Source: an uncultured Clostridia bacterium | GTDB lineage: Bacteria > Bacillota_I > Bacilli_A > RFN20 > CAG-288 | Assembly: GCA_900313465.1 (NCBI GenBank) | Contig: OMRU01000002.1 | Span: 1 to 16,601 of the forward strand | Direction of reading: 5' to 3' | DNA length: 16,601 bases | Shown here: positions 8,372 through 16,601 of the stretch, piece after piece | Layout: each line of letters begins with the position of its first letter | Numbering within the stretch: the first letter of the stretch is position 1 | Notes under the pieces: model-generated | The model's database searches: none | What the model saw: only the letters and a program-made list of their open reading frames with translations | What the model was told of the DNA's origin: nothing | Position numbers and translations under genes: made by a program

Positions 8372-9532
8372 ATGGAAACTGCATTACTGATATTATCGAT
8401 TGTGATTTTGCTTTTGCTGGTTGTTTTAATCATCCTTCTATTATTTCGTAAACCAAAAGAAAGTAATTATGTTGATCATTCCAAAGAGATGTTTGATTAT
8501 CTAGAAAAGATCACTAAGGTCAATCATGAATCTCTAACTGAAATCAGAAAAGAGATGAATGAATTTAAAACGGAATCAAGAAAGGATATTTCCGATAGTT
8601 ATACTTCTCTTCTTAAGTTAGTCACCGACCAACTCAATGAACTGAATAAGAGAGTAGAAGGAAATCTAAAAACGGGATTTGAAACCAATGCTAGTAGCAT
8701 GAAAGAAGTCACTCTTGCCTTAGGTCAGATCACCAAAGCCCAGGCTAATTTAGATGCCTTGAAAGATGAAGTTACTTCCTTAAATGGTGTCTTGACCAAC
8801 AATCAGAAGAGAGGACGCTTTGGTGAGATTGCTTTAGAGAGCATACTAGAGAATGTCTATGGTGATACTCATGGTCTATATGAAACCCAGATTGAGTTAT
8901 CAAGTGGAAATAGACCAGATGCGATTGTCTATCTTCCTAAACCGGATCATATGGTCTGCATTGATTCTAAGTTCTCCTTTACTTCCTATAGCAAGTTATT
9001 TGATACTAAGGATGGAGAAGAAGAACATGAACTTCGCCAGGAATTCAAATCCGCTCTAAAGCAGCAAGTCACCAAGATTGCTTCTGATTATATCAAGCCC
9101 GGAAAGACAGCATCTTATGCCATCATGTTCATTCCTAGCGATGGCATCTATGCGTTTTTACAGAGCAATGATGATTTCTATCATTCCATCATCGACTATG
9201 CGAGAAGTAAGAATGTCATTCTTACCTCTCCTAGTACGCTTCAGCCAATCCTAGCCAATATTCGTATGCTGCAGGTCAATTATGAAGTGGCAAACAACAT
9301 CAAGGGTGTCATTGCTCATATTCAGAAGCTGAGAAAGGAAAATGAGATGCTTCTTGATGATTGGGTCGCCTTTTCTAAGAGCATGGATTCTCTTTCTAAG
9401 AAGAAAGGTGAATTTGATAAGAGAGTGGTCTCCTTAAATAAGAAAACCGACGCTTTACTAAATGAGGCCGATCAGAGTAATCTATTAGAGTCAAACGGTA
9501 ACGAAAATGATGAATCTTATCAAGGAAATTGA
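8372..9532 (+). CDS. rmuC: DNA recombination protein RmuC
   Basis: The protein has 386 residues. An N-terminal transmembrane anchor (about 4-25) is followed by a long coiled coil (about 40-140) and then the RmuC nuclease-like domain (about 145-330). The latter holds GRFGEIALE (148-156), RPDAIVYLP with Asp183, and IDSK with Asp198 and Lys200, together a PD-(D/E)xK pattern. RmuC limits recombination at inverted repeats and is thought to act as a nuclease on DNA (family knowledge). The ATG at 8372 is chosen because of GGAGG at 8361-8365 and the membrane helix right after it; an in-frame GTG at 8321 lies upstream of the -10 box. The 3' end overlaps the NUDIX gene by 26 bases, so the two are likely co-transcribed. 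Confidence 0.92.
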   Translation: METALLILSIVILLLLVVLIILLLFRKPKESNYVDHSKEMFDYLEKITKVNHESLTEIRKEMNEFKTESRKDISDSYTSLLKLVTDQLNELNKRVEGNLKTGFETNASSMKEVTLALGQITKAQANLDALKDEVTSLNGVLTNNQKRGRFGEIALESILENVYGDTHGLYETQIELSSGNRPDAIVYLPKPDHMVCIDSKFSFTSYSKLFDTKDGEEEHELRQEFKSALKQQVTKIASDYIKPGKTASYAIMFIPSDGIYAFLQSNDDFYHSIIDYARSKNVILTSPSTLQPILANIRMLQVNYEVANNIKGVIAHIQKLRKENEMLLDDWVAFSKSMDSLSKKKGEFDKRVVSLNKKTDALLNEADQSNLLESNGNENDESYQGN

Positions 9533-10073: not shown

Positions 10074-10086
10074 ACTCACGTTTTTT
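10058..10086 (+). terminator. Terminator of rmuC-NUDIX, overlapping the stop codon
   Basis: ACGTGAGTT (10058-10066) pairs with AACTCACGT (10073-10081) around a 6-base loop and is followed by T residues to 10086. The NUDIX stop codon TAA (10071-10073) falls at the loop/stem edge, so the hairpin begins within the coding region. Confidence 0.9.
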
Positions 10087-10140
10087 GTTCCATCGACACG
10101 AAGTTTTTCCTAAAACACTGATTTTTCTTTTCTATATTCC

Positions 10141-10146
10141 TATAAT
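10141..10146 (+). promoter_or_regulatory. -10 box of the pectate lyase gene
   Basis: A TATAAT lies 22 bases upstream of the ATG at 10169, downstream of the previous terminator. The -35 region is T-rich without a clear hexamer. Confidence 0.45.
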
Positions 10147-10168
10147 GACTTTATTAGCGAGTGAATTT

Positions 10169-12007
10169 ATGAATAGAAAAAGATTATTATCATTACTTTT
10201 TATCCTTCCACTTCTAAGCGGTTGTAGACTAGATTCTACTTCCTCTATTAGTGAATCATCAACAACTAGCAATACTTCCTTTATTACAAGTAGTGAGTCA
10301 AGTGTTGCTACAACTAGTTTCGTCTCTAGTTCTAGTGTAGAAGAAAAAGACAGCGTCTTTTCTTCTATCGATAGTGAAAGTCATGAGAATTCTAGCAAAA
10401 TAGAAAATTCCTCTTTTGAAGAATCTTCTTCAAGCAACATGAATTTTCAGGTGATTAAACTTGATTCCTCAAATGAAAAAATCGCCTTATCTTTTAGTGG
10501 TGATAAACCAAAAGAAGTCTATTATTCTCTTGATGGTGAAACCGAAATTAAAGTGGATGAGGAATTGATCTATGATGAGGAAATCTTCATTCCTGGATTA
10601 AAGAAGGGTAGTTATACGTTAAGAATTGTTGATGATCAGAATGAAGAGATGATTCTCTCTTCGATTGAAGTAAGTGCGATCGACCGTTCAGGTTATGCCC
10701 ATTTTCATTTAGCTGCTGCTTCTGGCTTTGGTGGCTATAAGGATGATGGAACCTTGAAGGATGATGCTCAAGTTATTTATGTCAATGATAATAACAAGAA
10801 TACTGTCCAGCTCAAGATTGGAAATAACACCTATACAGGTTTAGTCAATATCCTCAATCATTCCAAAAACCTCACCACTCCTGTTGTCATCCGTTTTATG
10901 GATACCATCAAGACCAATCAGTTCAAACCGAAAAGTGTAGAAGAGGGTAAAGAACCATTTGATGACGTCAATTACTTCTATAACGAAAAAGAAGATACCT
11001 ATACCGAACTAAATGGTTTATCCTCCAAGATCTGGGCGCCATCGACCATTGATGTCGATAGAGCAAAACAAGGTGGGGTAACCGAAGTTTCGACTGTCAG
11101 TAAAAGCAAAGACACCGATAGCGCCTTTAATAACTGCAAAGTCGCCAATGTTTCCAATATGACCATTGAAGGTGTTTCTTCTACTGCTGGCTTATTAAAC
11201 TGGGGTTTTACCTTCCAGAAATGTGCGTTTATCGAACTTAGAAACTTGACGTTTAGCGATTATACGGAAGATGCCTGTTCTTTTGAAGGAAGTCAGGGTA
11301 ACTATAATAAGTCAACTGGCGTTGTAGAAAAGACTCTCGATACGAATTATCAAGGATATTTCTTACATCACTGCACCTTCAACAGAGGGAAAAACAACTG
11401 GGATTTAACCCAAGAGCAGGATAAACATGATGGTGATGGTTCTGCTGACTTAAAGAAACTTAGCAACGTCACATTTGCTTACAATCATTTCTATAACTGC
11501 CATAAGACTGGTTTGATTGGTGGAGGCAATGAGCAGATGACAAGAAATGTCACCTTCCATCATAACTATTATGAAAAATGTCAGTCTCGTCTTCCTTTAG
11601 GAAGACAAGTCAATCTTCATTGCTACAACAATTATTATCTCAATTGTGGCAATTGTCAGGATATGAGAGCCAATTCCTTTACTTTCTCTGAAGCAAATTA
11701 TTTTGAAAACTGCACCTCTCCTCAGCTTGCCACAAGCGACAGCGTCTTTTCTTCCACCATCATCAAATCCTATCAGGATGTGATCGTCAATGCTTCAAAA
11801 GCCTCTCAAGCTAGTGTTGCTTTGACAAGAGAACAAAGCTTTACGGCGAACTGTTGTCCAGATGGCGAAAATGACTATTCTAATTTTGATACTAGTTCTA
11901 CTCTGTTTTATTATGATGAGGTCAATAAAGTCTCAAACGTCTCTCTTTTAGAGTCAGCAAGTAATGGTAAGACGACTTGTATGAATCTTTCTGGAAGTTA
12001 TCACTAA
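10169..12007 (+). CDS. Secreted lipoprotein pectate lyase (PL1-like)
   Basis: The protein has 612 residues from MNRKRLLSLLFILPLLSGC: a basic n-region, a hydrophobic core and an LSGC lipobox with Cys19, so it should be a surface lipoprotein. A Ser/Thr/Glu-rich low-complexity linker (about 20-95) follows, then an extra beta-rich domain (about 95-180) and a right-handed beta-helix domain. Pectate-lyase PL1 marks are HDGDGSADL (from His420), the HKTGLIGGG block, VTFHHNYYEKC, and SRLPLGR with Arg474/Arg479, the region of the catalytic Arg, followed by a Cys/Asn-rich NNYYLNCGNC stretch. The likely action is Ca-dependent beta-elimination of polygalacturonate outside the cell. The ATG at 10169 is chosen because it starts a proper lipoprotein signal; the longer in-frame frame to 10085 overlaps the terminator and promoter. 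The ribosome site is weak. Confidence 0.85.
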   Translation: MNRKRLLSLLFILPLLSGCRLDSTSSISESSTTSNTSFITSSESSVATTSFVSSSSVEEKDSVFSSIDSESHENSSKIENSSFEESSSSNMNFQVIKLDSSNEKIALSFSGDKPKEVYYSLDGETEIKVDEELIYDEEIFIPGLKKGSYTLRIVDDQNEEMILSSIEVSAIDRSGYAHFHLAAASGFGGYKDDGTLKDDAQVIYVNDNNKNTVQLKIGNNTYTGLVNILNHSKNLTTPVVIRFMDTIKTNQFKPKSVEEGKEPFDDVNYFYNEKEDTYTELNGLSSKIWAPSTIDVDRAKQGGVTEVSTVSKSKDTDSAFNNCKVANVSNMTIEGVSSTAGLLNWGFTFQKCAFIELRNLTFSDYTEDACSFEGSQGNYNKSTGVVEKTLDTNYQGYFLHHCTFNRGKNNWDLTQEQDKHDGDGSADLKKLSNVTFAYNHFYNCHKTGLIGGGNEQMTRNVTFHHNYYEKCQSRLPLGRQVNLHCYNNYYLNCGNCQDMRANSFTFSEANYFENCTSPQLATSDSVFSSTIIKSYQDVIVNASKASQASVALTREQSFTANCCPDGENDYSNFDTSSTLFYYDEVNKVSNVSLLESASNGKTTCMNLSGSYH

Positions 12008-15593: not shown

Positions 15594-15600
15594 TTTTCCC

Positions 15601-15731
15601 GTTCATAAAGAGTACGGCTAGGGACCAAGCCCAATGACCCGTCAGCAGCGTGCCACAAAGTGGAGATGTGCTTCAGCTTGGACCGATGGGCTAATTATGA
15701 ATTTCTGCCCATTGGTAACAATGGGCTTTTT
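15601..15731 (+). ncRNA. SAM-I-clan riboswitch with transcription terminator
   Basis: P1 is a perfect 7-bp stem, TTCATAA (15602-15608) with TTATGAA (15695-15701), followed by the conserved AAGAG-like strand. P2 is ACGG (15614-15617) with CCGT (15639-15642); P2b is GGG (15621-15623) with CCC (15630-15632). The P2b loop CCAAG (15625-15629) can form the pseudoknot with CTTGG (15677-15681). P3 is AGCA (15644-15647) with TGCT (15669-15672), capped by CCAC-AAA-GTGG. The TCAGCA junction matches the SAM-I core. The normal P4 hairpin is missing or shrunk. A terminator GCCCATTG-GTAA-CAATGGGC (15707-15726) plus five T residues follows. CCGATGGGC (15683-15691) can pair instead with GCCCATTGG (15707-15715) as antiterminator. 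SAM binding should favour termination, shutting off the TSCPD gene and metK. Confidence 0.85.
15707..15731 (+). terminator. Riboswitch expression-platform terminator
   Basis: There is an 8-bp GC-rich stem with a GTAA tetraloop and TTTTT at 15727-15731. It is expected to form when SAM is bound. Confidence 0.88.
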
Positions 15732-15793: not shown

Positions 15794-16069
15794 ATGATTC
15801 AGACTATTGAGTATCAGCCAAAAGGGGTTTGTTCACGTTTGATGGTGTTATCCATCGATGATGAAAAGGATGTCATCACTGACTTTAATGTAGTCGGTGG
15901 ATGTTCTGGTAACCTTGCTGGTATCAGACGTCTGATTATCGGTATGTCCGTTCAAGATGTCGCTGATAAACTTGCAGGTACTACCTGTGGGTTTAAGAAT
16001 ACATCTTGTCCTGATCAACTAAGCCTTGCCCTAAAGAGCTACCTTGCAAGAAAGGAGAATGCAAAATGA
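15794..16069 (+). CDS. TSCPD-domain protein (TIGR03905-like)
   Basis: The 91-residue protein carries the name-giving TSCPD motif as NTSCPDQ (Cys72). The rest of the small-domain pattern is present too: KGVCSR (Cys13), VVGGCSGNL (Cys37) and GTTCGFK (Cys65), giving four conserved Cys residues that suggest metal or Fe-S binding. The same domain is found at the C terminus of some ribonucleotide reductases; stand-alone members are uncharacterised. GGAGG at 15782-15786 precedes the ATG. The stop overlaps the metK start (ATGA at 16066), so the two are translationally coupled and both lie behind the SAM riboswitch, linking this protein to methionine/SAM metabolism by context. Confidence 0.88.
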   Translation: MIQTIEYQPKGVCSRLMVLSIDDEKDVITDFNVVGGCSGNLAGIRRLIIGMSVQDVADKLAGTTCGFKNTSCPDQLSLALKSYLARKENAK

Positions 16070-16601
16070 CAAAAATCAGAAATCTTTTTACGTCTGAATC
16101 TGTTTCCGAAGGACATCCTGATAAGGTCTGTGACCGCATCAGCGATGCTATCCTTGATGCTGCTTTAGCTCTTACTACCAAAGCAAAATTAGACTATGAG
16201 AAGATTGCTCGTGATGTCGTTCGCTCTATCGGTTATACTAAGCCTGAACTTGGTATCGGTGCCGATAGCATGGAAGTCGAAGTCAACATCACCACTCAAT
16301 CTCCCGATATCGCCCAGGGTGTAGATAACTCCATGGATACCAAATCCATCGGTGCTGGTGACCAGGGCATCATGTTTGGCTATGCCACCGATGAGACGGA
16401 AAACTATATGCCTCTTCCTTTGGTCATGGCTCATAAGATGGTCAGATATGCCACCGCTTTAAGAAAAGCTGGTGAACTTAGTTTTGCTCGTCCGGATATG
16501 AAATCTCAAGTCACCGTGGATTACACCAATCCCGATGACATCAAGATCAGTGCTGTCGTCTTTTCTTGCCAGCACAATCCTGATATTGAGATTGAAGAAT
16601 T
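16066..16601 (+). CDS. metK: S-adenosylmethionine synthetase, 3' end outside window, with 23-residue internal gap
   Basis: The N-terminal 178 residues are unmistakably MetK: LFTSESVSEGHPDK (ATP-binding His17, Asp19, Lys20), TQSPDIAQGVD, SIGAGDQGIMFGYATDET (active-site flexible loop) and RPDMKSQVT. MetK makes SAM from ATP and methionine in the cytoplasm. AAGGAG at about 16052-16057 supports the ATG. Compared with E. coli MetK, the text runs LDAAL-A35 directly into L36-TTKAKLDYEKIARDVV, so residues equivalent to 33-55 of the E. coli enzyme (CETYVKTG...VGGE) are absent as a clean in-frame gap at about 16168-16173. That segment carries Glu42 (potassium site) and Glu55 (methionine site) in E. coli numbering. 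Either the gene product is crippled or altered, or the sequence has an assembly deletion. The ORF stays open to the window end. Confidence 0.9.
   Translation, partial: MTKIRNLFTSESVSEGHPDKVCDRISDAILDAALALTTKAKLDYEKIARDVVRSIGYTKPELGIGADSMEVEVNITTQSPDIAQGVDNSMDTKSIGAGDQGIMFGYATDETENYMPLPLVMAHKMVRYATALRKAGELSFARPDMKSQVTVDYTNPDDIKISAVVFSCQHNPDIEIEE

Follow-up and report, generated by a model that had tools for sequence, protein, structure and literature searches.

A 69-base in-frame gap in the metK gene of an uncultured bacterium probably stems from a local assembly or library error

In Escherichia coli MetK (methionine adenosyltransferase), Glu42 is presumably a K+ ligand and Glu55 a methionine contact. 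According to two papers on human MAT, Glu57 forms a dimer salt bridge with Arg264 (PMC7271947, PMC3793261); the former also describes Glu70 as touching the main chain of methionine and assigns both Glu57 and Glu70 a part in catalysis (PMC7271947). We examined a stretch of 16,601 bases (the window) that comprises positions 1–16601 of contig C157 in draft genome G000, which totals 1,340,531 bases in 275 contigs and is 75.17% complete. At its end lies the N-terminal part of an ordinary metK of an uncultured bacterium whose relatives are named Bacilli, from which 69 bases are missing relative to two near-identical proteins of the protein collection, P0121 and P0122, and to the other relatives examined. 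The features concerned, in window coordinates, are as follows.

15600–15703, forward strand: SAM-I (S-box) riboswitch-like leader (RF00162, 40.7 bits, gathering score 44.4)
15707–15726, forward strand: terminator-like hairpin with a T tail, following the S-box (consensus scan)
15794–16069, forward strand: gene for a TSCPD-domain protein (PF12637, TIGR03905), overlapping the metK start by 4 bases
16066–16601, forward strand: metK, N-terminal part, 178 codons, open at the contig end and continued on contig C199 (TIGR01034 and PF00438/PF02772 matches)
16173–16174, forward strand: junction from which 69 bases (23 codons) are missing (alignments with P0121, P0122, the listed proteins and the loci; codon list)
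16580–16601, forward strand: final 22 bases of the contig, the same as the end of C199 (6442–6463, reverse)

The join falls between Leu36 and Thr37, the former encoded by codon 36 (CTT, 16171–16173) and the latter by codon 37 (ACT, 16174–16176). In alignments with P0121 and P0122, exactly 23 residues, or 69 bases, are absent, the frame is kept, and there is no second gap. A preliminary description of this DNA had reported a MetK without a 23-residue segment, an exact in-frame loss of 69 bases and the disappearance of both glutamates of that segment; the alignments agree on each point, and the interval it gave for the loss, 16156–16185, includes the actual join at 16173|16174. The Pfam model S-AdoMet_synt_N (PF00438) is accordingly matched in two pieces on the window protein, at model positions 2–37 and 55–99 of 99. 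The fragment scores 206.6 bits against a TIGR01034 cut-off of 309.4, which is low partly because the contig ends. As a baseline, we took the other window genes alignable to the sister genome G002, five in number, and these contain a single gap, of 1 residue, over 1,152 alignment columns; compared with the same genome, MetK carries a single 23-residue gap, which exceeds ordinary divergence.

To place this gap among relatives, we drew on proteins, loci and draft genomes. Two protein searches, with the best 120 of ~8,000 scored proteins retained in each, gave 240 proteins; a length rule kept the 178-residue query from reaching full-length MetK, which the 370-residue query could reach, and clustering at 90% identity could conceal a gapped allele beneath another representative. 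When these proteins were aligned with the window, 240 of 241 rows spanned both flanks, 239 of them from proteins other than the window's. Relatives with the same gap, which by the preliminary description would show the loss to be tolerated if they also made SAM, were absent from all three sets of sequences: none of the 239 flank-covering proteins (among the best 120 of ~8,000 per search) has lost the segment, nor has any of 29 relatives' loci or of 80 loci from named genomes (kept from at least 590 confirmed). P0047 lacks 6 of the 23 residues in the protein alignment, a partial loss only. The relatives' loci come from a search of the window's own genome and 58 relatives, which matched all 59 and gave 30 loci, so that 30 of the genomes are represented; apart from the window copy, each locus has at least 19 of the 23 residues.

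Across the order, PF00438 is matched in 256 of 279 drafts, the window's own included, and in 145 of the 150 with a completeness of 90% or more; the best matches listed start at model positions 1–3 and end at 98–99. Eight genomes of the order were re-examined for weak PF00438 matches, and none has the window's pattern: G028, G205 and G206 cover most of the model (2–98, 3–87 and 3–91), the match is cut by a contig end in G086 and G075, divided between two contigs in G202 and around a run of N in G143, and limited to model positions 7–77 in G128. On the sequences examined (proteins, relatives' loci, named-genome loci and order drafts), the gap is ruled out as a family trait.

Several further observations were made in the course of this survey. 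PF00438 is unmatched in 23 of the 279 drafts, five of them at least 90% complete. On contig C9 of G143 (8828–9276, L123), metK is broken by the N run and part of its coding sequence is duplicated on both sides; the run could mark a gap in the scaffold whose ends were left unmerged, or it could be masked sequence. The same-genus relative G009 has two metK copies (C4 and C47), with 76% and 56% identity to that of the window over the matched part. In genus g49, the MetK N domain is matched weakly on G205 C5 (L122) and G206 C19 (L124), with E ~1e-27 and the model covered to 87 and 91, respectively.

Residues 37–59 of P0121 are the counterpart of the missing segment. In an AlphaFold2 model of this protein (mean pLDDT 76.6, built with 30 sequences), they form a short loop and two strands, 41–49 and 52–60, which make up a β-hairpin between helix 18–36 and helix 67–78; the model of the fragment from the window has helix 18–35 followed by helix 44–55, with no intervening strand. 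The hairpin carries Glu45 and Glu58, both absent from the window MetK. Each is present in 238 of the 239 proteins in the alignment (best 120 of ~8,000 per search), and both are kept in every one of the 29 relatives' loci and in 79 of 80 named-genome loci. Their spacing of 13 is that of human Glu57 and Glu70, to which, judged by motif and spacing, they probably correspond. Other parts of the enzyme are in place: His17 and Asp19 of the EGHPDK motif, each found in 239 of 239 other proteins, are intact in the window MetK, and all three S-AdoMet_synt Pfam domains are matched, N and M on the window and C on contig C199. A MetK lacking the hairpin should not make SAM.

The sequence in front of metK resembles that of the sister genome. 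The RF00162 match at 15600–15703 covers the whole model (1–108) with an E-value of 4.6e-8 in a 331-base search; at the default gathering cut-off nothing is listed in the window (40.7 < 44.4 bits). Because a terminator-like hairpin follows, the leader probably works as a riboswitch. In G002, the TSCPD gene and metK stand in the same order, with coordinates that give the same 4-base overlap, and an S-box of 39 bits, found in a search at E 0.01 and also below the gathering score, lies upstream of the same genes. In the loci of six relatives no S-box reaches the gathering score, and none appears at E 0.01 in L036–L038. The preliminary statement that the gene keeps its SAM riboswitch therefore needs qualification: the element is present, but it scores below the gathering threshold and precedes the TSCPD gene that lies before metK. 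Elsewhere in the window, positions 10085–12007 encode a large predicted protein whose N-terminal part is rich in serine and which has a pectate lyase domain (PF00544).

C157 ends 428 bases past the join, and on C199 the metK frame continues to the MetK stop codon. In a profile search of the genome's contigs, PF00438 was matched on C157 only and PF02773 on C199 only, which together with the 22-base overlap of the contig ends shows a single metK split by the assembly. The contig break inside metK and the 22-base overlap suggest a thinly covered stretch assembled at small k. Among the other contigs there is no 22-base partner for the start of C157, so this signature comes from one contig pair.

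Apart from the gap, metK is under strong constraint, which mostly reflects its history before the gap arose. In comparison with G002, the 34 codons before the gap contain zero replacements, the part after it has a dN of 0.05 and a dS of 0.82 (142 codons), and the part on C199 has a dN of 0.02 and a dS of 0.87 (150 codons compared). The genome has eight radical-SAM domain matches, and the cell should therefore need SAM.

P0121 and P0122, each of 393 residues, have the 23 residues and agree with the split gene outside the gap at 369 (P0121) and 367 (P0122) of 370 residues; neither is letter-identical to the window protein. Sequence identity at this level suggests that both belong to the same species as the window, in which case, as far as the proteins tell, the gap would not be fixed in that species.

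Judging from the P0121 protein and the window codons, the deleted stretch would share at most 2 bases with the flank in this species. The equivalent region of G002 contains no repeat of 7 or more bases at a spacing of 69 bases, and the copies of its one 8-base direct repeat are spaced 51 apart. Repeat-mediated collapse or slippage is rejected on the G002 sequence, and the strict form of the assembly collapse, between repeats, that the preliminary description had offered as an option is not supported. The equivalent G002 stretch also has an inverted repeat of 8 bases whose arms are 11 bases apart, and the 99 bases around it out-fold 196 of 200 shuffles (z −2.24); such a fold, seen in G002, might cause a polymerase to jump, either in the cell or during library preparation.

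Based on these results, we consider the 69-base gap to have arisen through a local fault in the assembly of the draft or in its library, with a probability of about 0.6. A chimeric or jumped read, accepted at thin coverage, would have dropped the 69 bases; we infer both the thin coverage and a laboratory or software origin of the join, as opposed to one in the cell. An error is favored because near-identical alleles are intact, because a contig break lies in the same gene and because the cell apparently needs SAM. Several points argue against it: the join is clean, in frame (a chance of one in three) and placed at the edges of a β-hairpin; no G002 repeat of matching spacing would make an assembler skip the segment; the five other genes compared show no similar fault; and the 22-base overlap is a signature of one contig pair. 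Moreover, PF00438 is unmatched in 23 of the 279 order drafts, and since these include 5 of the 150 with at least 90% completeness, a real loss of MetK is conceivable in this order. The same 5 drafts, the clean in-frame join with its flanks intact, the graph collapse left unexplained by any G002 repeat of matching spacing, and the G002 inverted repeat with its strong fold, which a polymerase might jump over in cell or tube, would fit a real, recent deletion that inactivated MetK in a single strain. Such a strain would import SAM, carry another metK in the quarter of the genome that the assembly lacks, or belong to a short-lived lineage that happened to be sampled. However, P0121 and P0122 are intact, the MetK N domain is kept in 256 of the 279 order drafts (its own included), and the search of this draft genome gave no second metK, and we therefore regard a real deletion as possible but doubtful. 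The recent deletion and the assembly error named in the preliminary description thus both stand, with the balance shifted toward error by the intact alleles, the contig break and the apparent need for SAM.

A shortened MetK that manages without the hairpin, as a working or a regulatory protein, would agree with the retained frame and with a gene still placed behind an S-box-like leader and its TSCPD partner, as in G002. We nevertheless judge it very improbable: the lost glutamates are nearly invariant in the proteins and loci surveyed, the fragment model joins two helices where a strand should be, and the genome yielded no other metK. In the human enzyme, moreover, the probable counterparts of these glutamates both have a function: Glu57 pairs with Arg264 in the salt bridge of the dimer, and Glu70 contacts methionine (PMC7271947). 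The preliminary description had also raised a regulatory or inactive paralogue and advised looking for a second intact metK; PF00438 and PF02773 reveal no second metK in this draft, 75% complete, and the one found stands behind the same TSCPD gene as in G002. Least credible of all is a natural hairpin-less MetK that serves as a scaffold or regulator and is still controlled by the S-box, with SAM obtained by other means. If the deletion were real, one strain would have lost a key enzyme, or MetK would be able to dispense with part of its active site. An assembly or library error, the reading that we prefer, carries a more general caution: when a widespread enzyme shows an in-frame gap in a fragmentary draft, near-identical proteins should be compared before the gap is read biologically.

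In its comparison with known systems, the window protein is like the MetK family (TIGR01034; PF00438, PF02772 and PF02773) in the rest of its sequence, and it lacks the N-domain β-hairpin, P0121 residues 37–59, and the two glutamates that the hairpin carries. As in G002, its gene follows an S-box-like leader and a TSCPD gene. From P0121 and P0122 it differs in the 23 residues, which they retain and the window MetK does not.
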